Shown one piece after another: positions 36,183 to 49,843 of a DNA stretch of 64,000 bases. The stretch's first letter is position 1, and each line of letters begins with the position of its first letter. The stretch covers positions 1 to 64,000 of the forward strand of contig AUXH01000026.1 in NCBI GenBank assembly GCA_000482145.1, read 5' to 3'. The notes beneath the pieces were generated by a model, which searched no databases, was not told where the DNA came from, and worked only from the letters and a program-made list of their open reading frames with translations. The position numbers were made by a program, and so were the translations under genes. The stretch is from Strigomonas culicis. Its lineage: Eukaryota; Euglenozoa; Kinetoplastea; Trypanosomatida; Trypanosomatidae.

Positions 36183-36595
36183 GAGATGGCTGCCTCTTCT
36201 GCGTCTCCTTTCCAGCTTCGCCCTCTCTCTCTCTCTTTCTTTGTATTTCACCTTTGTGAATACGGTTGCCTGGTGGTTGGTATTTGTTTTTTTTTTTTTT
36301 ACCATGAACGTGAAACGACAATGTGTGTGCGGTGGTACGCCTACACCAGTATATGCAATCTTCCATATGCGTGATCAGTGGTCTTATATTTCTTTAGAAA
36401 GGCATACATTTCTCTCGATCCCCCCCCCCCTTCTCTCGCGCTCTATGAAGCCCCTTATTCCACTTTCTTTTTTTCTCTCTTTCGTAGTTTAGTATATATA
36501 CACACCTCTTTTCATTTTTAGCGTCTTCTCGATTCGTCCAGAAGCGCTTGAAGCAAAACTAACAAACAACCTTAAAAACCTCATCAAAAAAAAAA
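36183..36595. other. Intergenic spacer with trans-splice acceptor for OGDH E1
   Basis: CT repeats occur right after the Sep15 stop codon (about 36222-36240), then a C-run (36421-36430). A pyrimidine tract (36451-36483) with AG at 36486-36487 is the likely acceptor, about 108 nt before ATG 36596. Confidence 0.6.
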
Positions 36596-39500
36596 ATGAT
36601 GCGTCGTATGCTCAGTGGGGCAGTCTTTGCCCAACATGGCATCCGTGCGTACACGGATGCCAAGACGATTCGTAAGCCCAACCCGTACGACCAGATCTTG
36701 CAGTCCTCCAATCAGGAGTACGTCGAGCACCTGCTGGCCAAGTACGAGGAAGATCGTGCGCTGGTGGACCCGAGCTGGATCCCCATCTTTGACGCGATGC
36801 GTTCCCGCGATTTTGATCAACCCATCGTGCTCACGTTCAGCCGCCCCTATGACCCCAAGTCCATCTCCGAGAAGCAGCGGCTGGACAACATGCGTCTGGC
36901 GTGGATGATTCGTGAGTACGAGGAGAGCGGCCACTACTTTGCCGACACCAACCCGCTCAAGGGCATCCTCGAGCCGGACCACAGCATCGACAGCAATCTG
37001 CTCGACCCCCTCACCTTCGGCTTCAGCCCCGATGATTTGAAGCAGGTGTTCAACGTGACGTTTGGCGCCAACCACGAGGCGACCTTCGTCAGCGGCGGTA
37101 CCGCCATGACGCTGGAGCAGATCATCGACAAGATGCACCGCATGTACTGTGGTCCGATCGGGTTTGAGTTCATGTCGTCCGGCTTCTTTGACGTGCGCAA
37201 CTGGTTCCGGCAGGAGATCCTCTACTCGCTGCAGCCCCTCTCCATCCCGAACAAGAAGCTCATCTACAACGACGTGGTCAAGGCGTGCGGACTGGAGAAG
37301 TTCCTGCAGATCAAGTATGCCACGCAGCAGCGCTTCGGCCTGGACGGCGGCGAGGCCACGATCCCCGCCTTGAACGCCATCCTGATGGAGGCGGCCTCCA
37401 GCGGCATGGACAGCGCCATCATCGGCATGGCGCACCGCGGACGTCTCAACACGCTCGCGAACGTGTGCCACATGTCCATCCACTCCATCCTGAACGAGTT
37501 TGAAGGCAACGTGCCGGAGCACCTTAGAGACCTCAACGGCGACGTGAAGTACCACATTGGTATCAACCACGGCTTGAAGCTGCCGGATGGCCAGCACATC
37601 AACATCGAGATGATCCCGAACCCGTCCCACCTGGAGGCTGTGAACCCGCTCGTTCTCGGTAAGGTGCGCGCGCGCCAGGCGATGCGCAACGACGTGGAGT
37701 GCACCTCTGTGCTGCCACTTCTCATTCACGGCGATGCCTCCTTCACGGGCCAGGGCTCGTGCTACGAGACGATGGGCTTCTGCGAGCTGGAGAACTTCCA
37801 CTGCGGCGGCACCGTGCATGTCGTGATCAACAACCAGATCGGTTTCACCACGTCGCCGGACCAGGGCCGCGCGACGCGCTACTGCACCGACCTCGCGAAG
37901 GTCAACAACGCACCGGTGATGCACGTGAACGGGCACAACGTGGAGGCCTGCGTGAAGGCGGCCCGCATCGCCGCGCGCTTCCGTCAGCAGTTCCACCGCG
38001 ATATCATCCTCGACATTGTGTGCTACCGCCGCAACGGCCACAACGAGCAGGACCTGCCGGACTTCACGCAGCCGCAGATGTACGACTACATCCGCAAGCT
38101 GCCGCCGCTCGTCGACATCTACAGCAAGCAGCTCATCGAGGAGGGCGTCATCCTCGCGGACGAGCGCGCGACGAAGGAGAAGGAGTGGGAGGGCATCATG
38201 CGCCACGCGTTCGACCGCCTCAGCAGTGTCCACGACTTCGTGAAGGTGGAGCCTGTGTTCGACCCCGAGTCGGAGAACACGTCCGCGGAGCTCGCCGCGC
38301 GCAAGTTGGAGAAGCGAAAGCTCGACGAGCGCAAGCCGAAGCCGATCGAGACCGCTGTGAACGCCCAGGTGCTGCGGCGGGTCGGCACGCACATCACGTC
38401 CATCCCGAAGGAGATGCAGGAGGCGCACCCCGTCGTGCAGCGCACGTACGCGGCGCGCCAGAAGGGCATCGAGAACGGCGACGCCGTGGAGTGGTGCCTG
38501 GCGGAGCTGCTCGCCTTCGGCACGCTCTCGCTGCAGGGCGTCCACATCCGCCTCACCGGCGAGGACGTGGAGCGTGGCACCTTCACGCAGCGCCACGCCG
38601 GCATCACGGACCAGAAGACGAACCTCAAGTACTTCCCCGTGCAGACCCTCTCGCCCTCGCAGGCGCTCATCACCATCTCGAACAGCTCGCTGTCGGAGCT
38701 CGGCTGCTGCGGGTTTGAGACCGGCTACAACATGGAGGTGCCGAAGAGCCTGTGCATGTGGGAGGCGCAGTTCGGCGACTTCGCGAACGGCGCCCAGGTC
38801 ATCTTCGACCAGTTCCTGTGCTCCTGCGAGCAGAAGTGGAACCTGCACTCCAGCCTCGTCATCTCGCTGCCGCACGGCTACTCCGGCGCCGGCCCGGAGC
38901 ACAGCTCGGCCCGCATCGAGCGCTTCCTGCAGCTCTCGGACGACGTGGACCAGGTGCCCGCCGACTTCCGCTCCAGCACGCCGCAGGAGCTGCTGGAGGA
39001 GCGTATCTACCAGCACAACTGGCAGGTGATGTACCCCTCCACGCCCGCGAACTACTTCCACCTGCTGCGCCGCCAGGGCCTGCGCGACTACGCGCGGCCG
39101 CTGATCAACTTCTTCTCCAAGGCCCGCCTGCGCGCGCCGAACCTGTCGACGGTGGACGAGATGGCGGCCGGCACGGAGTTCCGCCCCGTGATCGACACCG
39201 GCAAGCCCGGCGTGGTGGCGCGCAAGCTCGTCTTCTGCACCGGCCAGATCGAGAGCATCGTGAACGACGCGCGCGTGGCGATGCAGAAGAAGGAGCCGGG
39301 CGTGCACAACGACGTGGTGCTGGCTACCGTCGAGCAGCTCTCGCCCTTCCCGTGGGAGCAGGTCGCGGATGTGATCGACAAGTACACCGCGCTCAACAAG
39401 GACGTCAAGATTGCGTGGATGCAAGAAGAGCCGAAGAACATGGGCATGTGGCGCTACATGCGCATCCGCTTCAACAGCCTTCTGCGTCACCTGAACCTTC

Positions 39501-39613
39501 CGCAGCGCAACATCGACTACATCGGCCGCCCCGCGGTGGCGTCGCCCGCCACTGGCTACGGCTCCGTGCACGTGGCAGAGGAGAAGAAGCTCATTGAAGA
39601 AACGTTGGCTTGA
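36596..39613 (+). CDS. 2-oxoglutarate dehydrogenase E1 component, mitochondrial
   Basis: The product is 1005 aa, the usual size of the OGDH E1. It decarboxylates 2-oxoglutarate with thiamine diphosphate and hands the succinyl group to the lipoyl E2 in the mitochondrial matrix. Visible motifs are IGMAHRGRLNTLANV (about residue 275), the ThDP pocket GDASFTGQG (about 378) through VINNQIGFTTSP, and the transketolase-like pyrimidine-binding half (GTFTQRHAGI, SLPHGYSGAGPEHSSARIER in part). The C-terminal WMQEEPKNMGMW motif is also present. The start, MMRRMLSGAVFAQHGIRAY, is a typical short mitochondrial presequence. Two ATGs are adjacent at 36596 and 36599. Nothing is missing. The long antisense frame over this gene is a codon-bias shadow. 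Confidence 0.96.
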   Translation: MMRRMLSGAVFAQHGIRAYTDAKTIRKPNPYDQILQSSNQEYVEHLLAKYEEDRALVDPSWIPIFDAMRSRDFDQPIVLTFSRPYDPKSISEKQRLDNMRLAWMIREYEESGHYFADTNPLKGILEPDHSIDSNLLDPLTFGFSPDDLKQVFNVTFGANHEATFVSGGTAMTLEQIIDKMHRMYCGPIGFEFMSSGFFDVRNWFRQEILYSLQPLSIPNKKLIYNDVVKACGLEKFLQIKYATQQRFGLDGGEATIPALNAILMEAASSGMDSAIIGMAHRGRLNTLANVCHMSIHSILNEFEGNVPEHLRDLNGDVKYHIGINHGLKLPDGQHINIEMIPNPSHLEAVNPLVLGKVRARQAMRNDVECTSVLPLLIHGDASFTGQGSCYETMGFCELENFHCGGTVHVVINNQIGFTTSPDQGRATRYCTDLAKVNNAPVMHVNGHNVEACVKAARIAARFRQQFHRDIILDIVCYRRNGHNEQDLPDFTQPQMYDYIRKLPPLVDIYSKQLIEEGVILADERATKEKEWEGIMRHAFDRLSSVHDFVKVEPVFDPESENTSAELAARKLEKRKLDERKPKPIETAVNAQVLRRVGTHITSIPKEMQEAHPVVQRTYAARQKGIENGDAVEWCLAELLAFGTLSLQGVHIRLTGEDVERGTFTQRHAGITDQKTNLKYFPVQTLSPSQALITISNSSLSELGCCGFETGYNMEVPKSLCMWEAQFGDFANGAQVIFDQFLCSCEQKWNLHSSLVISLPHGYSGAGPEHSSARIERFLQLSDDVDQVPADFRSSTPQELLEERIYQHNWQVMYPSTPANYFHLLRRQGLRDYARPLINFFSKARLRAPNLSTVDEMAAGTEFRPVIDTGKPGVVARKLVFCTGQIESIVNDARVAMQKKEPGVHNDVVLATVEQLSPFPWEQVADVIDKYTALNKDVKIAWMQEEPKNMGMWRYMRIRFNSLLRHLNLPQRNIDYIGRPAVASPATGYGSVHVAEEKKLIEETLA

Positions 39614-40564
39614 ATAAGTAGACAAAACAAAACAAAACAAAGGAAAAATTATATACAAAACAGAATATTTACCGGAAAGAAAAAAAAACGCTTTTTTATT
39701 CATTTTTTTTCTCTATCCCTTCGTGTTCCCACGGCTCGAAGATCGAAGATGTGACTCGTACTTGAGCTTTTTGTAAAATAGAACAGTTTGAGACGTTTTA
39801 CTGTTTATCACTTGCTGTTTCTTCGTTGTAGGAATACCTTATTTGCACAATTTTTTTTTTTCAATTCTGATGATGTTAATATTTATAAACGGTTTCTTTT
39901 GGTTTTGGTGGTGATGCATCACGTAAATGTCATGTCCGTTAATGGTTTAAAAGGGAAAGGAAACGTACGATAGTGAACGACCTTGTTTTTAGATTTTTAT
40001 TAAAAAATGATTTACTATAAAAAAAAACTCTTTTGCTAATCCAGTATTTAGTACGGATTAGTTTCTCGGATCGAAAAGAAAAAACGAAATATATATATAT
40101 ATGTATATGTATATGTGTATGTATATGTATTACACTCTAAGCTAACAACAAAAATGAAAAGGCCTTTTTAAAAACTCCTTATTTACCAAATATACTTATC
40201 GTATGTTGCGCACAGCAGACACAATATTAAATAAATATACATATATTTTTTTTTGCTACCTGTCTTGTGGATGTAGTACGAATACTACTGTTCGCATGAT
40301 CCCTCGTATGATTGCGCTTCTTTGCTCACACGAAATGAACTACCATCCCCCCCCCTCCCCCGGCTCTCTCTCTCTCTCTCTATACCTTGTAGTATACAAG
40401 CTGTCCATGAAATCGTTTGTTCTATAGAATCTATCCCGTTTGTTTCTCTGCCGTTGCACGTTAGAGGACGGACGGAAGCAGCTGAACACACCTACCCAGT
40501 TAGGCACTCTTCTACCGTGGACCACTTTGAAGTCGAAACCTGGCAACGGTGCGAGACCAGAACC
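39614..40564. other. Long AT-rich spacer with TATG repeat and CT/C-rich splice tract
   Basis: Non-coding, 951 bp, with A/T runs. A TA/TATG microsatellite lies at about 40089-40131. A strong tract of C-run plus CT repeat (40343-40388) is followed by AG at 40391-40392, the likely acceptor for the PIKfyve-like gene, giving a 5'UTR of about 170 nt. No RNA gene seen. Confidence 0.6.
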
Positions 40565-43500
40565 ATGTTCGGCGGCAATAAGGCCCTCTGGGTGGACGAT
40601 AACGATGTGCTGCACTGCCGTAGTTGCAAGGCCACCTTTTCCTTTTTTAGACGCAAGCACCACTGTCGGCTGTGTGGTCAGATTTTCTGCAGCGACTGCA
40701 TCATCAACCTCCGCGCCAGCTCCTACCTCCCATGGTCGACGAGCGGCCGGCGACCCTTGGCCGAGTCACTCACCACACTCGAGAAGGTGTGCGTACACTG
40801 CTACGAGCGCCAGGCGCAGCCGCAGCAGAGCCGGCGCGAGCCCACACACCAGGAGACCGTGTCGGCGAGGCGATGGGGCGCCGACACGTCAACGGAGAGG
40901 CCGACGGACATCGGTGCGCAGCCGCACTCCCCCGTGTACCACAGCCCGCTCTCGTCGCAGAAGAAGGTGCTGCCGCTGCCCGTGATAGCAGAGTCGGGGG
41001 GTGGAGCAGAGCGGTCCGGGCCCGCACCGTTCAAGCAAGCGCCAGTGACCGCGCACACCGTACCGCCCCCGTTGGATATAGACGAGCTTCACCGCGTGAC
41101 ACCGCCGATACCGGAGAGAGACAGTGTGGCAAGTAGTCGTTCTCCATCGCTTGGGGAAGCGGTGTCCCTTCCTGAGGATGATGCGGGAGACGACGACGGC
41201 AGCGCAGCAGTCCTGTGGGGTCTAGAAGATCCGCTCCTTGTCATTGAGCACCCCCTGCACCGGCAGGCGCGACGTGCGGAGACAAGAGCCGCCCCCTGCA
41301 CTCGAAGCTTCTCGACGGAGGACGAGTTCCCTTTCGCACCAGCACAACGACGGGTGGAGGCCGCGCCGCCTACGGTGTACGCATACTACAGCAAAGACCA
41401 TCCCCAAACGAACCTGCTCTTACCCACGACGTTTGTGAAGAAGGGCGCCGCCGCAACGCACATGGATGAGAAGATGCTGCGTTGTATGACGGACCATGTA
41501 GCGTCTCTCGTCTCGACGCATGTGATGGAACGTTTGAGCAGTGCCGCGACGCCCTCAAAAGAGACGTGGACCTCACTTATCGTCCGCAGCGCGTGGGAGG
41601 CCGTCGGGAACACGGTGGTGCCGATCGGGAGCTTCCCGCAAGAGCACATAATGGTGTCCTGGGAGCACAGTCGCACAGGGTCCCTTCCGCGGATCGATGT
41701 GGTGGACGGGATTGTGCTGCACCAACTGCTGTTGTCGAAGCGGATGCGCACCCACCTCCGCCACCCCAAGGTGCTACTCGTCGCGGGCGACCTGTCCTAC
41801 TACTCGGCGGAGGAGGAAGGCCCACTGCGCATGCTGAACGGGTACAAGGGATACCTCTACTCCATCTGGCGCCGCATCGAGCGCTGGGCCCCCGACTTGC
41901 TGCTCCTTGAGGGAAACATGCACCACTACCTGCAGACGACGATCATCGAGCAGGGCCACCTCTGCGTCGTGACAAACGTCGGCGCGGCGACGCTGCGTCG
42001 CGTGGCGGCGGCGTCGCAGGCCACCATCATCACGGACATTGACTACACGAACGAGGCGGATCTGCTTCGCACGGACGTTATGGGCACCGTGGCGGAGTTC
42101 CGGCAGGTGCGCGTCGGCGACGGCACCTCACGCACCGTCCTGCGCGGACTCGCCCTTCCGCTCTACACCACGGTCGTGCTCCAGGCCCCGCGCACGGACC
42201 CGGAGACGGCGCGGCAGCTGGCGCAGGCGCAGGCGGCGGCCGTGGGGATGGTGTCGCACCAGACACTGCTGGCGCACCTGCAGGTGGACTTCGGCGTCGG
42301 CACGTGGTGCGGCGCGCCCGCCGGCGGCGCCACGGCGGCCGGCCCGGCACCCGCGCGCCTGTGGCAGAGCCGGTGGACGTACAGCGGGGACCTCGTGGAC
42401 CTGGGCGGCGATAGGGGGGCGGTGGACGGCAGCGCCACACCCGCCGCCAGCGCGGCGGTGGCGAACTGCCTGACGCTGCGCAAGGTACGCCTCGAGCTAA
42501 ACGAGCGGCCGCCGTCCGCCGCGGGGGCGGAGGAGGATCTGAACCGGCGCACCTACTACAACGAGCACGTCAGCGACACGTACGTGTTTTACAAGAGCGG
42601 CGCCGACACCCCGCTCGCCTCCTTTCTGATGCAGGCGATGCGGGAGGAGCGCGTCCACTTTTTGTACGCCCACGGTGGCACCAAGATTAGGGTCACGAAG
42701 CACGCGTGCGGCTTCGATCAGCGCGGCACCGCGTACTTCTGCAAGGGCGGCACCGACGCCGTGGAGTGCTTCACCGGTGCGTGGCGGCACGGCGGGGGCG
42801 GCGCCCTGTCCGGCACGGCGGGGAGCAGGCCGGGCATGGCCCCGCCCTACTGCTACAGCGCGTGCGACCGCTGTGAGGAGCGACGGCGCCGTGGCGAGAC
42901 GCTGTCCGTCCTGCTGTGCTCCCCTTTCACGTGGAACCTGTCGATGGGCGCCTTTCTCGAGTATCTCTGCTACGCCGCCAATGTGACTGCGTGCCCGCTG
43001 TGTGGCGGCTCCTTGTCGTCGACTTCGGACGCGCCTCCGCCCGGATGCGGCGGTCTCACGTTTTGTTTTGTACTCTTTCCCACGGCGGACGCGCTTTCGC
43101 GGGTGGAGGTGCGATTTCACGTAACCGCATTGAAGTACTGCACCATACACTTTCCAGCCGCAGACCATCCGTGCCAGGCCAGCGGGGAAGCGGGAAGTGC
43201 GTCTGCCTCGGCTGAGGACACAAGTGGCGCGCCGGTGCCAAGCACAGGAGAGGAGGCGTACGATGCTTGCCTGACAAAGGACAAGGAGCGCGTCTATGTA
43301 AGTGAGCCGACCAGCATCCTGCGTGCGGTTCTACTGACGGAGCGGAACAGTGCGGCGCCCCCGCGTGCCGTGGGGGAAGATGCCCATGCACGCTTCACGT
43401 CCAGCATCCCCCCGGAAGCCTCCAGCGGCGCCTCCCTCACACGCACCTATACGCTTCGCTTGACGCCGCTGCAGCAGCAGGGGGTGCGCGACATCACCTA

Positions 43501-44494
43501 TACCGTCGACGTGCTCTACAGCAGGGCCTTCTGCGGACTGCGCCAGTGCCTCTCGGGCGACCCTCGTGAGACCGCCCTGCTCGCCTCGCTCTCCCGCTGC
43601 GAGGCGTTCCGCGCGGAGGGCGGAAAGGCCTCTGCGGACTTCTACTGCAGCCGCGACCGCCGCCTGCTGCTCAAGCTCGTCAAGTCGACGGAGCTGCAGC
43701 ACATCAGCTCCATGGGCCCCGCGTACTTCCGCTACCTGGCGCGCTGCCTCGGGCAGCAGCGCGGCGGCGGGCCGCCGGCGACCGCGCTGGTGCCGCTGCT
43801 GGGGCTTTATGTCGTGAAGGCGAGCATGATGCCGTCCGACGGCACCGTGGTCTATTATGAGCCGAGACACTTTCTGCTGATGGAGAACATCTGGAACAGT
43901 GTGCCGGTGGCACAGAACGTGCGGCAGCTGTACGACCTGAAAGGGAGTCAGCGCAACCGGGTCGCGCCGAAGGGCTCCAATGTGCGGTTGGACGTGGACT
44001 TTGTGTACGAGACGCAGCGGGGGGACTTCTTCTTCTGCACCACCATGGACAAGGTCCACGCGATGAACACGTTGCGGGCGGACTCGAAATTCCTGCAAGG
44101 CTGCATGGTGACCGACTACTCCCTCTGTGTTATGCTGGCCGCGCGCATGCGGCCGCCGGCAGCCGCGGCAGCGGCAGGGACATCGAACGACACAACCGAG
44201 TCCATGGCGACAGCGGACGCCGAGCAGCACCTGTGGCTGGGCATCATCGACTACTTGCACCCCTACAATGGCGCGAAGCGCATCGAGTCCAAAGTCAAGT
44301 TCGGCATCGACACGGTTCTTGGCGTCTCCGTGCACGATCCGACGATCATCGACCCTCTGCGCTATCAGCAGCGCTTTCTCAAATGGATGCACAACTACTT
44401 TTGCAGTGTGCCTGGCCGCTTCGAGACGGAGGCGCACATTGTCCAGATGGACGAGAAGCTGCATGCATTGGCCTTCGAGCAACCGAAAGAGTAA
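40565..44494 (+). CDS. PIKfyve/Fab1-type phosphatidylinositol-3-phosphate 5-kinase
   Basis: The product is 1309 aa from ATG 40565; the frame is open further upstream but that part contains the splice tract. Domain order matches Fab1/PIKfyve. A FYVE zinc finger lies at about residues 8-75 (WVDD, paired CxxC and the RRKHHCRLCG motif that binds PI3P). A chaperonin (Cpn60/TCP1)-like domain lies at about 400-560. A Cys/His-rich region follows (about 690-800, e.g. YAHGG, CYSACDRC). The C-terminal PIPK kinase spans about 1025-1305 with YDLKGS (about 1122), VTDYSL and LGIIDYL (about 1225). The enzyme makes PI(3,5)P2 on endosomes and lysosomes and controls their size and acidification. All catalytic signatures I can check are present. 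The N-terminal part after the FYVE finger is low-complexity. Confidence 0.93.
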   Translation: MFGGNKALWVDDNDVLHCRSCKATFSFFRRKHHCRLCGQIFCSDCIINLRASSYLPWSTSGRRPLAESLTTLEKVCVHCYERQAQPQQSRREPTHQETVSARRWGADTSTERPTDIGAQPHSPVYHSPLSSQKKVLPLPVIAESGGGAERSGPAPFKQAPVTAHTVPPPLDIDELHRVTPPIPERDSVASSRSPSLGEAVSLPEDDAGDDDGSAAVLWGLEDPLLVIEHPLHRQARRAETRAAPCTRSFSTEDEFPFAPAQRRVEAAPPTVYAYYSKDHPQTNLLLPTTFVKKGAAATHMDEKMLRCMTDHVASLVSTHVMERLSSAATPSKETWTSLIVRSAWEAVGNTVVPIGSFPQEHIMVSWEHSRTGSLPRIDVVDGIVLHQLLLSKRMRTHLRHPKVLLVAGDLSYYSAEEEGPLRMLNGYKGYLYSIWRRIERWAPDLLLLEGNMHHYLQTTIIEQGHLCVVTNVGAATLRRVAAASQATIITDIDYTNEADLLRTDVMGTVAEFRQVRVGDGTSRTVLRGLALPLYTTVVLQAPRTDPETARQLAQAQAAAVGMVSHQTLLAHLQVDFGVGTWCGAPAGGATAAGPAPARLWQSRWTYSGDLVDLGGDRGAVDGSATPAASAAVANCLTLRKVRLELNERPPSAAGAEEDLNRRTYYNEHVSDTYVFYKSGADTPLASFLMQAMREERVHFLYAHGGTKIRVTKHACGFDQRGTAYFCKGGTDAVECFTGAWRHGGGGALSGTAGSRPGMAPPYCYSACDRCEERRRRGETLSVLLCSPFTWNLSMGAFLEYLCYAANVTACPLCGGSLSSTSDAPPPGCGGLTFCFVLFPTADALSRVEVRFHVTALKYCTIHFPAADHPCQASGEAGSASASAEDTSGAPVPSTGEEAYDACLTKDKERVYVSEPTSILRAVLLTERNSAAPPRAVGEDAHARFTSSIPPEASSGASLTRTYTLRLTPLQQQGVRDITYTVDVLYSRAFCGLRQCLSGDPRETALLASLSRCEAFRAEGGKASADFYCSRDRRLLLKLVKSTELQHISSMGPAYFRYLARCLGQQRGGGPPATALVPLLGLYVVKASMMPSDGTVVYYEPRHFLLMENIWNSVPVAQNVRQLYDLKGSQRNRVAPKGSNVRLDVDFVYETQRGDFFFCTTMDKVHAMNTLRADSKFLQGCMVTDYSLCVMLAARMRPPAAAAAAGTSNDTTESMATADAEQHLWLGIIDYLHPYNGAKRIESKVKFGIDTVLGVSVHDPTIIDPLRYQQRFLKWMHNYFCSVPGRFETEAHIVQMDEKLHALAFEQPKE

Positions 44495-44824
44495 CTGCCT
44501 CCTGCTCCACACACCGCCTGACATGCCTGCGTACAGGCATGTGCAATCAGCTTCTGCGACGGTGTGCAGTATTTTTTTTTTTTTGCACTTGCTTTCATGA
44601 ACATGTATTGATGTATTTTTCTTCTGATGTTTGCCAGTCCATAGCAGCTTGTATGATGAGAGATGAAACAGCACACAGGTGTGACTCTTGTTTTCGCATG
44701 GACACACATGTTTTCTTTCTCCCCCCCCCCTCCTTTCCACTCCCTCTTTGTCACCATTGGTTTGTCTGTTTTACGGAAAAAAATGAAGCAATCCGCTGCA
44801 ACCTCCCTTAGACCCAAACACAAA
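44495..44824 (+). promoter_or_regulatory. Spacer with splice tract that decides the start of the TMEM222-like gene
   Basis: The pyrimidine tract at 44718-44775 has no AG before the first in-frame ATG (44783). The first AGs are at 44787-44788 and 44810-44811. mRNA trimmed there would begin translation at ATG 44825 instead. Confidence 0.55.
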
Positions 44825-45406
44825 ATGGCGAACACTGCCGATGGTCCCCTTCTTCCTCCGCATATTGATACGGAACATGAGCACTATCCATTCTGTATCG
44901 TGTGGGCTCCGATTCCCATTCTGACGTGGATCCTCCCCTTTGTGGGCCACATCGGGATTTGCGACAGCAAGGGGCGCATCTATGACTTCCAGGGCTCCTA
45001 CTCGATTGGCAACGATCGCATGCTCTTTGGAAATCCGGTCAAGTACTGGGATGTCTCCAAAACGTTTGTCCCAACGTTTTACCAACTTAGCGAAAGCGAC
45101 CGCACGACACCGGAAAACGTGGCTCTTGTAAAGAAGGAGATGGAGGACTACGACGTTGCCGTTGCACGCGCCGTGCGCCACTTTCGCAAGACGCAGTTGT
45201 ACAACTTTTTCAGTAACAACTGCCATGCCTTTGTGGCGTCGGCCAGCAACGAGCAGCACTTTGCGACAAAGCAAATGAACACGTTTACGATCTGCCTCGG
45301 TATGCTTCTCCACGGCCGGTATGTGAGCTGGAAACACTTTTTAAAAGCGCACCTTGCAACAATTATCTTGCTTCTTATCGTAATCTGGATTTGCACTTTT
45401 GTTTAA
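44825..45406 (+). CDS. TMEM222/DUF778 family membrane protein
   Basis: The product is 193 aa from ATG 44825. The signature block CIVWAPIPILTWILPFVGHIG (in part) followed by YDFQGSYSI and FGNPVKYW is that of TMEM222 and the plant RTH/DUF778 proteins. A conserved NNCHAF motif (C133, H134) follows, and the last 20 residues form a membrane anchor (about 174-192). An ATG at 44783 would add 14 residues, but both candidate splice AGs lie downstream of it, so the shorter start is preferred. The pairing of GHIG (H42) with NNC (C133) resembles permuted papain-like families such as LRAT/NlpC-P60. That is an inference, and no reaction is known. Plant RTH proteins act in ethylene receptor trafficking; here a secretory-pathway role is only a guess. 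Confidence 0.85.
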   Translation: MANTADGPLLPPHIDTEHEHYPFCIVWAPIPILTWILPFVGHIGICDSKGRIYDFQGSYSIGNDRMLFGNPVKYWDVSKTFVPTFYQLSESDRTTPENVALVKKEMEDYDVAVARAVRHFRKTQLYNFFSNNCHAFVASASNEQHFATKQMNTFTICLGMLLHGRYVSWKHFLKAHLATIILLLIVIWICTFV

Positions 45407-45906
45407 AACGAAGACGTTGACGGGAAAAGTGTGAATACCCTCCTCTCTCCATTCCAAAAAAAAAAAAGGGGGGGTGCGTTGTATGGATATGTTGATCTAT
45501 TTCTTGTCGAGGATGAGCGCCTTCGCATTTCCACAAAATCATTAAGGTGGTCACGTCAATCTCAGCGCCATAAACGTCTACTGCACCTAGACACTTCACG
45601 CTTCTTTTCCCCCTTCCTTCTACTTTGGTGAACTTTTTTGTTTTCTAGATAACCATAGATGACGTACAGTAATTATGCTCCTTCTTTCTCTTCTTCTTCC
45701 GCCACCAGAACGCGGCCGCTCATAGCGCGGCGTATTGTGCAGTGGAGAATACTACTAGCTTCATCTTGACCTGTCTGGCACCCTGTCAATATCTATCGGT
45801 GACGGACGCGCCCGAAAGTTCAAGAGAGATTTATCAGCGACACCTGCTGCTTTTTGGATTCGAGATGTTGGTGTTATGTATGTATAGATGGTATTCTCTC
45901 GTATAC

Positions 45907-45989
45907 AGTACCGTACTGATGAAAACAACCATGTGCGTGAGCGAAGCTGTGAATGCACTCTTTATCAAACTCAACAGGTCTGAGGTACT
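45907..45989 (+). ncRNA. C/D box snoRNA
   Basis: Box C is TGATGA at 45917-45922 and box D is CTGA at 45980-45983. They are bracketed by a perfect 6-bp terminal stem, AGTACC (45907-45912) with GGTACT (45984-45989). A D' candidate CTGT is at 45947-45950. The nine bases CTCAACAGG just upstream of box D (offset by one) are the exact complement of the conserved LSU rRNA string CCUGUUGAG. By the D+5 rule the methylated base would be the G of that CCUG. The size of about 83 nt fits trypanosomatid C/D RNAs. The target is from remembered rRNA sequence and needs checking. Confidence 0.75.
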
Positions 45990-46090
45990 TGTATAGCCTC
46001 CGGGGAGAGACATGGTGCGTGTAGGATAGAGTTCTGCTCTACGTGTATTCGTTGTTCTTAGTTTGCCTTTAGTGTTGTCCGGAAAGTGAA

Positions 46091-46174
46091 GCTTACATGA
46101 TGAATCTTTTATAGTTTCCTGTCAGTCCGAATACCCATGAGGACATATTTTCAACTCAGCTCACACTGACAAGC
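46091..46174 (+). ncRNA. C/D box snoRNA, copy 1 of a duplicated pair (predicted LSU Am guide, snR71/SNORD29-type)
   Basis: Box C is ATGATGA at 46097-46103 and box D is CTGA at 46166-46169. Internal D' is CTGT (46119-46122) and C' is ATGAGGA (46137-46143). A 4-bp terminal stem, GCTT/AAGC, closes it. The D guide AACTCAGCTCAC pairs for 12 bases, with one G-U, to GUGAGCUGGGUU of the conserved LSU segment just after the A-loop. By D+5 the methylated base is the A of GUGAGC, by my count the equivalent of yeast 25S A2946. That site is known to be modified under snR71 (human SNORD29). Confidence 0.82.
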
Positions 46175-46243
46175 GAAAACTCACTTCACTGGATATACAG
46201 TGTCCTTGTATAGATACGTAACCCTGCTTTCCAGTAAATAGGT

Positions 46244-46330
46244 GGTGTGCATGATGAATCTTTTATAGTTTCCTGTCAGTCCGAATACCCATGAGGACAT
46301 ATTTTTCAACTCAGCTCACACTGACGTACC
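46244..46330 (+). ncRNA. C/D box snoRNA, copy 2 of the duplicated pair
   Basis: The core (46250-46325) repeats copy 1 (46096-46170) base for base except for one extra T in a T-run. Box C is at 46251-46257 and box D at 46321-46324, so both guides are unchanged. The flanks differ, yet they again form a terminal stem (GGTGTG with CGTACC, two wobble pairs). Conservation of the core with independently pairing flanks supports function. Confidence 0.82.
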
Positions 46331-46435
46331 CCACGCTGTCCGTATCGATCGATATTGATTATTTCTCCTAGCTTCCATCTCTGCTTTTATCGCGTACGTT
46401 TGCGACAAAACGCGTAACCCAGCTAATGACCGTTA

Positions 46436-46530
46436 CTCTTCCATGATGCATAACACATGTTGGTCCAAACAGTTTGATTGGCATTAATATGATAATACGA
46501 CATAAAATCACCTTTCGGCTGACGCCACAA
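46436..46530 (+). ncRNA. Probable C/D box snoRNA (predicted LSU Am807-type guide)
   Basis: Box C is ATGATGC (46443-46449), with one base off consensus. C' is ATGATAA (46489-46495) and box D is CTGA (46519-46522). The D guide ATCACCTTTCGG pairs with the conserved LSU string CCGAAAGAUGGU at 11 of 12 positions (one G-U, one mismatch). D+5 points to the second A of CCGAAAG, by my count yeast 25S A807, a known 2'-O-methyl site. A 6-bp inverted repeat, ACCGTT/AACGGT, lies slightly further out (46429-46434, 46529-46534). It is weaker than the other three. Confidence 0.55.
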
Positions 46531-46795
46531 CGGTTTCTATCGATATCACTTTGAATTGCACTTCCTATCACTATTGGTATTGTTGTTGTTACATCTTTTC
46601 CTGTGTGTTTATTGACTCCTGGATGCCTTTTAAAGTAATAGTAGTATCATTCTGTTTCGCTCTACCCTACACTCTTGCTTTGTCTTCTGTGTTAGTTGTA
46701 GAGCACCCATTTGGGGTTTCATTGCCATTTATACGAACAACAATAATACGAAAAAAGCACGTCTCTATTACTATCGTTGAAAAGAAGAGCCGAGC

Positions 46796-49700
46796 ATGCC
46801 ACTCCCAGAGTACGTGCCCGCCCTAGACGACCCTGTGCAGCCGCACTTCGAGTTAGTATCGACGCTACAGCCGTTTGCGGACAGCGATGTGGTGCAGGCC
46901 GCGGACGCCCAGGGCGGCGTAGTGGCCGTCCTTAGCAAAAGGGGTCGGCTGACGGTCTCTGTCGACGACGCGGAGGAGACGCCGCTCGCGGGCAGTCTGC
47001 CGAACCCGCACGGCGTCTTCGTGCACCCGTCGGGCCGCCACGTCCTCGTGACGGCCACGGACGGCGACGTGCACTACTTCTCGACGCGGGGCAAGCGCAC
47101 CACAGGCAACGTATCGCTCAAGACGGCGGGGGCCCACTTCAGCTCCACGCCCGTCGGCAATGCGGTGTGCTGGCTGCCGCACGCATCCGCGCCCGGCGAC
47201 GAGGAGACGCTGGCGGCCCTCGTGGGCACCTGCTCGAACGGCTATCTGCTCGAGATTCAACTCACGGTCGCCCCGGCGAACAAGTTCAAGGCGTCCGCGC
47301 GACTGCTGACGCAGCTCTCGCTGCCGCGCGCGCAGACGCCGATCCGGAGTGTCTGCGCGGAGCGGGTCGGCGAGCAGCACGTGCTGCTCGCCTCGACGGC
47401 CACACAGCTCTTCCGCTGGTGGGCGCCGTGCGCCAGCGTGGGCGCGGTGCGGGACATGCTGCTGCACGCGGGACGGGTCGGCTCCAGCAGCGTCAAGGAG
47501 GTCGACGGCGACGCGGACGCGGACGCGGGGCAGCTGCGCGTCTACCGGCCTCAGCCGGGTCAGGCGCCGCAGTCCTACGCGTGGGCGAGCGCGGCCGGCG
47601 TGGTCCACGGCCTCTTTTGGCGCGGCGTCGGCGCCGAGGAGATGGAGGAGGACGAAAAGGCGCTGCTGATGCCGGCCGCGCCGGACGACGACACGGTGTG
47701 GACGAACGAGCAGCTGCTGTGCTTCGCCGCGGCGGGCGTGGCGAGCGGCGACGAGGGCACGACGGCCCCTGCGCCCCCGTGCGTGCCCCCCACGCAGGTG
47801 GCGCTCACGCCCTTCTACATGGTGCTGCTCTATCCGCAGCGGTGCGTGGTGCTGCACCACCCGACCGGCCTGTCCTGGCGCACCAGCGGCGAGAGCCACG
47901 CGGACGGCGACCGCACACGGCAGCAGCTGGAGGAGCGCATCTGCTTCGACCCGTTCGGTGGGCCGCAGCGGCGCGCGCCGCAGCTCGTCGGCGTCCTGCG
48001 CGACGCGACGACGCACAAGGTGTACGTGGTGGACCGCGAGCAGGTGTGGGAGCTGCAGATCTTCCACGAGTACCACCAGCAGTGCCGTGTCTTTTTAGAG
48101 CGCGCCATCAACGAGTCGGAGCCGCTGCTGCTGCGCAAGCGCTTCTACGACGCGGCGAGCCACGTCGCGCTGCGGCACCCCCCCTCCCAGCGCCACCTGT
48201 GCGAGTACCTGAAGGGGATGTTCTTCCTCAAGATCGGCGCGGTGCGCAAGGCGGTCGCTGTGCTGGCCACGTGCGACCACTGCGAGAGGGTGCTGGAGGC
48301 CCTCCCGTCCGGCACCGTCCGCGGCCTGTACCTGCGGAAGCGGTACGACTACCTTCTCTCCCGCCGCACGGACGAGAAGCAGGATTCGGTCGCGCTCGCG
48401 TGCCTCGTGACGTGGGTGGTGGATGCCGCGCTGCGCGAAAAACGCGGCGCGGGCGACGCAGACCGGGTGGCCGTGGGAGAGACGCAGCTGCAGGAGTTTC
48501 TGTTGCAGTCGACGGAGCAGTGCCCCTCGCTATGGAAGCAGGCGTGCTTCTTCGAGTTTCTGTACAAGCTCCTGCGCGAGCAGGGGTACGCCGGCGCGGC
48601 GTTCCAGCTCGCCCAGCGGCTGGCGTACCACCGCCACGTCGTGCGGCAGCTCGTGGCGGAGGGCGCCTACGCGGCCGCTGTGGACGTGCTGGCGAAGCAG
48701 TGCCACTCGCAGCCGGAGCTGGCGGACCTGTGGTACGAGGCGGTGCCCGCGCTGCACCCCCAGCTGCCCATCGCCACGACCACCGGTATCCTGCGCGCCA
48801 TGGTCCACGACCTCCACGCGGGCCGCCCCGCGATGCTCGACGCGGAGCTGCTGCTGCCGACGCTCCTCAAGTACACGGTGGCGCAGAACGAGGTGGAGGG
48901 CAACAGCGAGCACCAGGCGGTGGTGCTGCTGGAGCAGTTTATTTTCCGCTTTCAGTGCGCGTCGACGGCGGTGCACAACTACTTTGTGTTGCTGCTCGCC
49001 GAGCTGGGCGACCACGAGCGTCTGGTCGACGTGCTGACGGTGTCCCTCTTTTACGATGTGGGGTACGCGTTTCGCGTGTGTCTGGCGCACAAGTGCACGG
49101 AGGCCACCATTGTCCTGTACCGGCGCCAGCACCTGTACGAGGAGGCGGTCCACGCCCTGCTCGCGGCGCACGACACGGACGAGACGGCGATGTGGATGGC
49201 GATCAGCGAGGCCGAGGAGCTGCTGCGCGGGCTGTCCGACCGCGTCGACGCGGACCGCCTCCGCGCGCTGTGGCTCATGGTGGTGGACTACGCGCTGGCG
49301 TGCGGCACGGACCAGATGGCGCTGCAGGTCGTGTCGCACTCGAACCAGGTGCTGCGCGTGGAAGACGTGTTGAGCTGCATCGACGATGACGTGGCGGTTT
49401 CCGACTTCAAGGACTACATTGGCAACACGCTCGACGCGTACACGCACACCACTTCTGGCCTGTACGCGAAGCAGGAAGAGATCTATCAGACGGCCGAGCG
49501 CATGAAGGAGGAGCTGCAGCAGCTGCGTCACCAGTTCGGCTACGTGGCGAGCAGTCAGTGCTGCCCGCTCTGCCAGCGCAACCTCCGCTTCAGCGCGCAG
49601 CCGTACCTCATGTACCCCAGCTGCAAGCACATGGTGCACGAGGCGTGCGCGCTGCGCCGCCTGCGCCAGATTGGCAACGTCGAGGTGTTCCTGTCCGACA

Positions 49701-49843
49701 ACGGCGCGCCGCCGCACCTGCTGGAGGGCGTGCAGTCCCTAGAGGACCTGGCGCAGCTGGACTGCGTGGTGTGTGGGGAGGCCGCCATCGTGGAGCTGAG
49801 CATCCCCCTTTGTGAAGAGGATGCCGCCTCATGGGAGGTGTAG
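46796..49843 (+). CDS. VPS18: VPS18 (HOPS/CORVET subunit, Pep3/deep orange family)
   Basis: The product is 1015 aa, the normal length. The N-terminal 430 residues form a beta-propeller with the Pep3/Vps18 signature region (FVHPSGRHVLVTATDGDVHYF in part, and HKVYVVDREQVWELQIF). A long alpha-solenoid with a clathrin-heavy-chain-like repeat follows (about 450-880). Before the end there is a coiled coil (QEEIYQTAERMKEELQQLRHQ in part). The C-terminal RING-like zinc finger starts near residue 921 (CCPLCQRNL...YPSCKHMVHEAC...CVVCGEAA). VPS18 is a core subunit of the HOPS and CORVET tethering complexes that drive fusion with late endosomes, lysosomes and acidocalcisome-related organelles. All expected parts are present. 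Confidence 0.92.
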   Translation: MPLPEYVPALDDPVQPHFELVSTLQPFADSDVVQAADAQGGVVAVLSKRGRLTVSVDDAEETPLAGSLPNPHGVFVHPSGRHVLVTATDGDVHYFSTRGKRTTGNVSLKTAGAHFSSTPVGNAVCWLPHASAPGDEETLAALVGTCSNGYLLEIQLTVAPANKFKASARLLTQLSLPRAQTPIRSVCAERVGEQHVLLASTATQLFRWWAPCASVGAVRDMLLHAGRVGSSSVKEVDGDADADAGQLRVYRPQPGQAPQSYAWASAAGVVHGLFWRGVGAEEMEEDEKALLMPAAPDDDTVWTNEQLLCFAAAGVASGDEGTTAPAPPCVPPTQVALTPFYMVLLYPQRCVVLHHPTGLSWRTSGESHADGDRTRQQLEERICFDPFGGPQRRAPQLVGVLRDATTHKVYVVDREQVWELQIFHEYHQQCRVFLERAINESEPLLLRKRFYDAASHVALRHPPSQRHLCEYLKGMFFLKIGAVRKAVAVLATCDHCERVLEALPSGTVRGLYLRKRYDYLLSRRTDEKQDSVALACLVTWVVDAALREKRGAGDADRVAVGETQLQEFLLQSTEQCPSLWKQACFFEFLYKLLREQGYAGAAFQLAQRLAYHRHVVRQLVAEGAYAAAVDVLAKQCHSQPELADLWYEAVPALHPQLPIATTTGILRAMVHDLHAGRPAMLDAELLLPTLLKYTVAQNEVEGNSEHQAVVLLEQFIFRFQCASTAVHNYFVLLLAELGDHERLVDVLTVSLFYDVGYAFRVCLAHKCTEATIVLYRRQHLYEEAVHALLAAHDTDETAMWMAISEAEELLRGLSDRVDADRLRALWLMVVDYALACGTDQMALQVVSHSNQVLRVEDVLSCIDDDVAVSDFKDYIGNTLDAYTHTTSGLYAKQEEIYQTAERMKEELQQLRHQFGYVASSQCCPLCQRNLRFSAQPYLMYPSCKHMVHEACALRRLRQIGNVEVFLSDNGAPPHLLEGVQSLEDLAQLDCVVCGEAAIVELSIPLCEEDAASWEV

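Follow-up and report, generated by a model that had tools for sequence, protein, structure and literature searches.

A duplicated counterpart of the trypanosome guide RNA TB11Cs4C1, predicted to direct two LSU rRNA methylations, in a TB11Cs4-type snoRNA cluster of Strigomonas culicis

Introduction

Trypanosome snoRNA genes are described as clustered, mixed between C/D and H/ACA-like types, matured from polycistronic precursors and usually repeated (PMC2613932), and elsewhere as found either clustered or alone (PMC10662448). In the Trypanosoma brucei cluster TB11C5, H1 and H2 each appear twice, giving a partial tandem repeat, and a cluster may also be found again at another locus (PMC2613932).

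The closest described relative of the RNA considered here is T. brucei TB11Cs4C1, to which Table 2 of PMC9283944 assigns LSUb Am1388 and Am1400, 12 nt apart; the same table assigns LSUb U672 and G673 to TB11Cs4C3. On silencing of NOP1, the values given there leave A1400 unchanged (FC 1.00, p 0.97) and A1388 lowered, non-significantly (FC 0.55, p 0.12), so that the known TB11Cs4C1 assignment is without support from NOP1 silencing. Outside the trypanosomes, a table of 2012 (PMC3542256) names LSU A2946 as the site of snR71 in yeast and U29 in human, and in that table no trypanosome guide is entered for it.

Here we analyse a stretch of 64,000 nucleotides of S. culicis DNA (contig AUXH01000026.1, positions 1 to 64,000; hereafter the window). 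On the strength of sequence comparison we consider it highly probable that it carries a duplicated counterpart of TB11Cs4C1, set in a TB11Cs4-type cluster, which would guide the methylation of two LSU adenosines.

Results and discussion

A tandemly duplicated box C/D RNA

The two copies lie on the forward strand at 46097-46169 (copy 1) and 46251-46324 (copy 2). Each reads, 5' to 3', C box ATGATGA (46097-46103 and 46251-46257 in copies 1 and 2, respectively), 13-nt D' guide (46114-46126; 46268-46280), D' box CCGA (46127-46130; 46281-46284), C' box ATGAGGA (46137-46143; 46291-46297), 14-nt D guide (46152-46165; 46307-46320) and D box CTGA (46166-46169; 46321-46324). In both copies the C and D boxes are close to the RNA ends, as they should be in a box C/D guide. 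A preliminary description, made from the sequence alone, had called all these boxes perfect; the word suits C and D but is too strong for D' and C'.

The same description spoke of a 75-bp unit repeated 154 bp on with one inserted T, embedded in unrelated DNA, and alignment bears this out. The unit at 46096-46170 recurs at 46250-46325; over its 75 nt the sole difference is one T inserted in copy 2, and the starts are 154 nt apart, a distance that becomes 155 past the indel. The similarity ends one base beyond the C box and one base beyond the D box. In local alignments, the likeness of the 80-nt flanks is that of shuffled sequence, with the upstream score reached by 978 of 1000 shuffles and the downstream score by 514 of 1000. 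Misassembly could in principle yield near-identical units 154 bp apart, and the repeat would then be a DNA repeat or assembly artefact containing no RNA gene. To this we attach next to no probability, since the flanks are wholly different and the repeat stops at the box borders, while a diverged third copy retains boxes and guides and an Rfam-recognised snoRNA shares the gap (see below).

The copies fall within a 1,389-nt intergenic gap (45407-46795), which was scanned for a C-box core (TGATGA, one mismatch allowed), a CTGA and a helix of at least 4 bp. The forward strand yielded three C/D candidates, in all of which the core is perfect; the reverse strand yielded none. Shuffling the forward strand of the gap produced a mean of 0.03 perfect-core candidates, with at least one in 14 of 500 shuffles and three in none of the 500. 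The box C/D anatomy in the gap is thus well above chance. A stricter scan of both strands of the whole window gave three matches, namely the tandem pair and an antisense candidate at 6953-6875 (reverse strand). The latter has a 5-bp helix and both its C and its D box are perfect; it is the only match of that scan outside the snoRNA gap and was judged to be due to chance. Six pieces folded in or near the gap had z-scores from -1.18 to 0.59, and therefore no additional structured RNA is claimed there.

A TB11Cs4-type cluster

The gap is flanked by protein genes that, like the snoRNAs, lie on the forward strand. Upstream, at 44663-45406, is an RTE1/TMEM222-like gene (PF05608), whose translation may in fact begin at a later ATG; the best match to its product among the 38 proteins listed is from Angomonas deanei, with 69% of the query aligned at 75% identity. 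Downstream, at 46796-49843, is a gene with the Pep3/Vps18 beta-propeller (PF05131). Further upstream, a single protein encoded at 40565-44494 (forward) combines FYVE, Cpn60/TCP1 and PIP5K domains, which we take to be the arrangement of a Fab1/PIKfyve-type kinase. Beyond it, open reading frames of 1039 and 1005 aa overlap on the two strands of one 3-kb segment (36584-39703, reverse; 36596-39613, forward), and one of these is probably an antisense shadow.

Two further RNA genes precede the tandem pair within the gap. At 45761-45829 (forward) lies a match over the full model length to Rfam RF01539, the H/ACA-like snoRNA TB11Cs4H1, scoring 79.8 bits against a gathering score of 45 (E 9.2e-15). It is the sole gathering-level Rfam match in the window, and the family is described by Rfam as trypanosomatid. 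At 45916-45983 (forward) is the third C/D candidate, with C box CTGATGA (45916-45922), D box (45980-45983), a 6-bp terminal helix and D guide TCAAACTCAACAGGT (45965-45979, forward). Of the 15 positions of this guide, 13 pair with LSU CCCUGUUGAGCUUGA, which puts D+5 on the G of CCCUG; among 20,000 shuffled versions of it, none pairs equally well there. When the organism's own genome was searched at the DNA level, no second copy of this RNA turned up.

As a TB11Cs4H1 gene and a guide fitting TB11Cs4C3 occupy the same gap, this is a TB11Cs4-type cluster, with gene order H1-C3-C1-C1. No TB11Cs4C2-like RNA was recognised among the three C/D candidates that the scan of the gap yielded. The mixture of C/D and H/ACA-like genes with a partial tandem repeat resembles TB11C5; in S. 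culicis the repeated copies share the 75-nt core only and neither spacer nor stems.

Predicted targets in LSU rRNA

Searches of the assembly for the organism's own LSU rRNA, with an exact 12-mer and with a 26-mer at up to three mismatches, gave no match. The 5.8S family was likewise missing from the 39 of 488 candidates scored, and a sarcin-ricin 14-mer had no exact occurrence and six with one mismatch, compared with 25 in a reversed control. We read this as the LSU being absent or withheld from the assembly, rather than as the species lacking the target. Trypanosomatid LSU was also sought in public collections, using a pattern taken in part from the D' guide; this retrieved one Streptomyces contig, judged a chance match, and no viral contigs. 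Two further patterns in the viral collection led to four contigs, L010 and L011-L013. Of these, L010 and L012 match the eukaryotic LSU family and supplied the consensus, whereas L011 and L013 have no such match and were dropped as sources. In both L010 (from base 1) and L012 (10860-11223, reverse strand) one end consists of a fragment of eukaryotic LSU rRNA, and the two are perhaps chimeric assemblies or misfiled contigs. Since the assembly did not yield the organism's own LSU, duplexes were scored on the eukaryotic consensus of Rfam RF02543 as obtained from alignments of these two contigs, a reference distinct from this species' own rRNA.

The LSU string complementary to the D guide is GUGAGCUGGGUU, with D+5 on the A of GUGAG. 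Against CGUGAGCUGGGUUU of the consensus, 12 of its 14 positions are paired, 11 by Watson-Crick pairs and one by G-U, in agreement with the 12-bp duplex proposed at the outset. The D' guide in turn pairs with ACUAAUAGGGAAC of the consensus at 12 of 13 positions, including two G-U pairs, with one A-C mismatch; D'+5 is an A located 12 nt upstream of the D-guide target. Against the RF02543 consensus, therefore, each guide has at least 10 nt of rRNA complementarity beside its D or D' box with the target at the fifth position. When each guide was shuffled 20,000 times, equal pairing anywhere on an 83-nt LSU stretch, picked because the target was already known, arose in 39 (D) and 63 (D') cases.

Boxes, the gap scan set against shuffles and the pairing to LSU together bear out the original identification as a box C/D guide RNA. 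It is moreover a double guide, whose D' site had been missed, and it very probably directs methylation at two rRNA sites. The LSU of this species would be expected to contain GUGAGCUGGGUU, together with an upstream stretch pairing with GUUUCCUGUCAGU, and to read CUGAC in place of the CUAAU of the eukaryotic consensus.

Relationship to known guides

LSU A2946 of yeast is, we assume, the A of GUGAGC, and the A opposite the D guide is taken as the equivalent of yeast Am2946. The preliminary description had D+5 landing on the A modified by snR71 and SNORD29. The A of GUGAG is indeed at D+5, and LSU A2946 is the site named in the table of PMC3542256. One guide of the S. culicis RNA is predicted to address the same A as yeast snR71 and human SNORD29 (U29), but the RNA differs from them in that its other guide addresses the A located 12 nt upstream. 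We know of no yeast guide for that position. Rfam includes SNORD29/snR71 families; the duplicated RNA matches neither, its best weak match being to SNORD53/92, which at 21.6 bits lies well under the cut-off of 46. The RNA would accordingly function like snR71/SNORD29 yet is not, as far as its sequence goes, a member of that family.

The likeness to TB11Cs4C1 is closer. The nucleotides at the five Nm sites that Table 2 of PMC9283944 gives for T. brucei from LSUb 1375 to 1435, namely U, A, A, C and U, agree with the LSU consensus in one of 23 registers tested, and this single register sets LSUb 1388 and 1400 on the two predicted adenosines, the fit being to the consensus LSU and not to that of T. 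brucei. On the consensus, then, the As addressed by the two guides are equivalent to the TB11Cs4C1 positions, with the reported 12-nt spacing, and the companions of TB11Cs4C1 are found in the same gap in the form of the RF01539 match and the C3-like guide. Judged from its guide targets and genomic neighbours, the duplicated RNA corresponds to T. brucei TB11Cs4C1, and given this match it is not new in kind but an ordinary gene. In S. culicis it is duplicated within the cluster, and a different contig carries a third copy.

In T. brucei, some C/D RNAs serve rRNA processing besides modification (PMC6411936), and the indifference of T. brucei A1400 to NOP1 silencing (PMC9283944) could be taken to mean that the D guide, or the entire RNA, works mainly on another RNA, in pre-rRNA processing or otherwise, with the LSU match secondary. 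We regard this as very unlikely, since both guides fit adjacent LSU stretches at the spacing reported for TB11Cs4C1 and are among the parts that stay constant across copies.

A third copy

A DNA search of the organism's own genome placed the guide RNA in at least two places, the extra copy being 93% identical and lying at 257-329 of contig C37. This copy lies at the contig end, some 135 nt away from a gene for tRNA-Leu, beyond which is one for tRNA-Asp; the first 10 kb of C37 contain four gathering-level Rfam matches, every one a tRNA. A pattern search allowing up to three mismatches located the D guide with D box at nine places and the D' guide with D' box at three, which supports a total of three full copies. 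The other six D-guide places have no C-box core within 110 nt upstream.

Compared with copy 1, scoring gaps as differences and excluding one edge base, the C37 copy differs at none of 49 box and guide positions and at seven of the other 25 core positions (Fisher p = 0.0003). At the linker positions where the C37 copy deviates, the two tandem copies agree with each other although their flanks share nothing, and this combination suggests recent copying or conversion between the tandem copies that was limited to the core. A more elaborate version, which we consider quite improbable, has the 75-nt core homogenised by short conversion tracts or RNA-templated copying ending at the functional border, stems and spacers being free to change. 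If true, the guide would be a mobile or homogenised cassette spreading to new sites such as the tRNA locus on C37.

Terminal stems

For copy 1 a stem may form between GCTT (46091-46094) and AAGC (46171-46174), and for copy 2 a 6-bp stem is possible between 46244-46249 and 46325-46330; the C37 copy has a terminal helix of 9 bp, six of them G-C. Random flank pairs, taken from the window's gap for all three copies including that on C37, equal the 4-bp helix of copy 1 in 13% of draws and the 6-bp helix of copy 2 in 2.2%, and reach 9 bp with five G-C in 0.12%. Flank duplex energies follow the same order, at -5.7 (copy 1), -11.3 (copy 2) and -22.0 kcal/mol (C37), against a baseline of 14-nt flanks at random window positions with a median of -5.0, a 5% mark of -12.3 and a 1% mark of -16.3 kcal/mol. 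Copy 1 is therefore near the random median and copy 2 falls short of the 5% mark. The stems of copies 1 and 2 are modest and, by energy, not clearly better than random flanks; among the three, only that of C37 is beyond doubt.

These rates and energies weaken an argument advanced previously, that each copy has its own terminal stem and that changed yet still pairing flanks indicate selection on an RNA product. Helices can be drawn for both tandem copies, but the pairing argument is weak, most of all for copy 1, and the constancy of boxes and guides in the C37 copy is the stronger ground for selection.

The same figures bear on whether one copy alone is functional, the other (copy 1, with the weakest stem) being a recent duplicate that is poorly processed or silent. 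Helix rates and duplex energies both lean that way. Against it, copy 1 retains all boxes and both guides, and its predicted fold contains longer-range pairing between the flanks. Terminal stems of C/D RNAs can also be short, and on balance we think a single working copy unlikely.

Proposed mode of action and implications

The cluster H1, C3, C1, C1, lying between protein genes on the same strand, is probably processed from a polycistronic transcript. The methyltransferase, NOP1/fibrillarin, would be led by the D guide to the counterpart of yeast Am2946 (LSUb A1400 in T. brucei) and by the D' guide to the A 12 nt upstream (LSUb A1388); transcription, RNP assembly and methylation are steps that we infer. 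The two cluster copies and the C37 copy probably provide dosage or redundancy. Duplication together with a lone third copy fits the known organisation of trypanosomatid snoRNA genes, and the finding leaves the view of C/D guide action unchanged.

What it adds is the location of a cluster of TB11Cs4 type in a trypanosomatid for which one protein search gave Angomonas deanei as the nearest match. Two sites of LSU methylation near the catalytic centre are also predicted, both adenosines being close in sequence to the peptidyl-transferase centre. With boxes and guides constant and linkers and flanks variable, the three copies show which parts of the RNA are apparently under selection.
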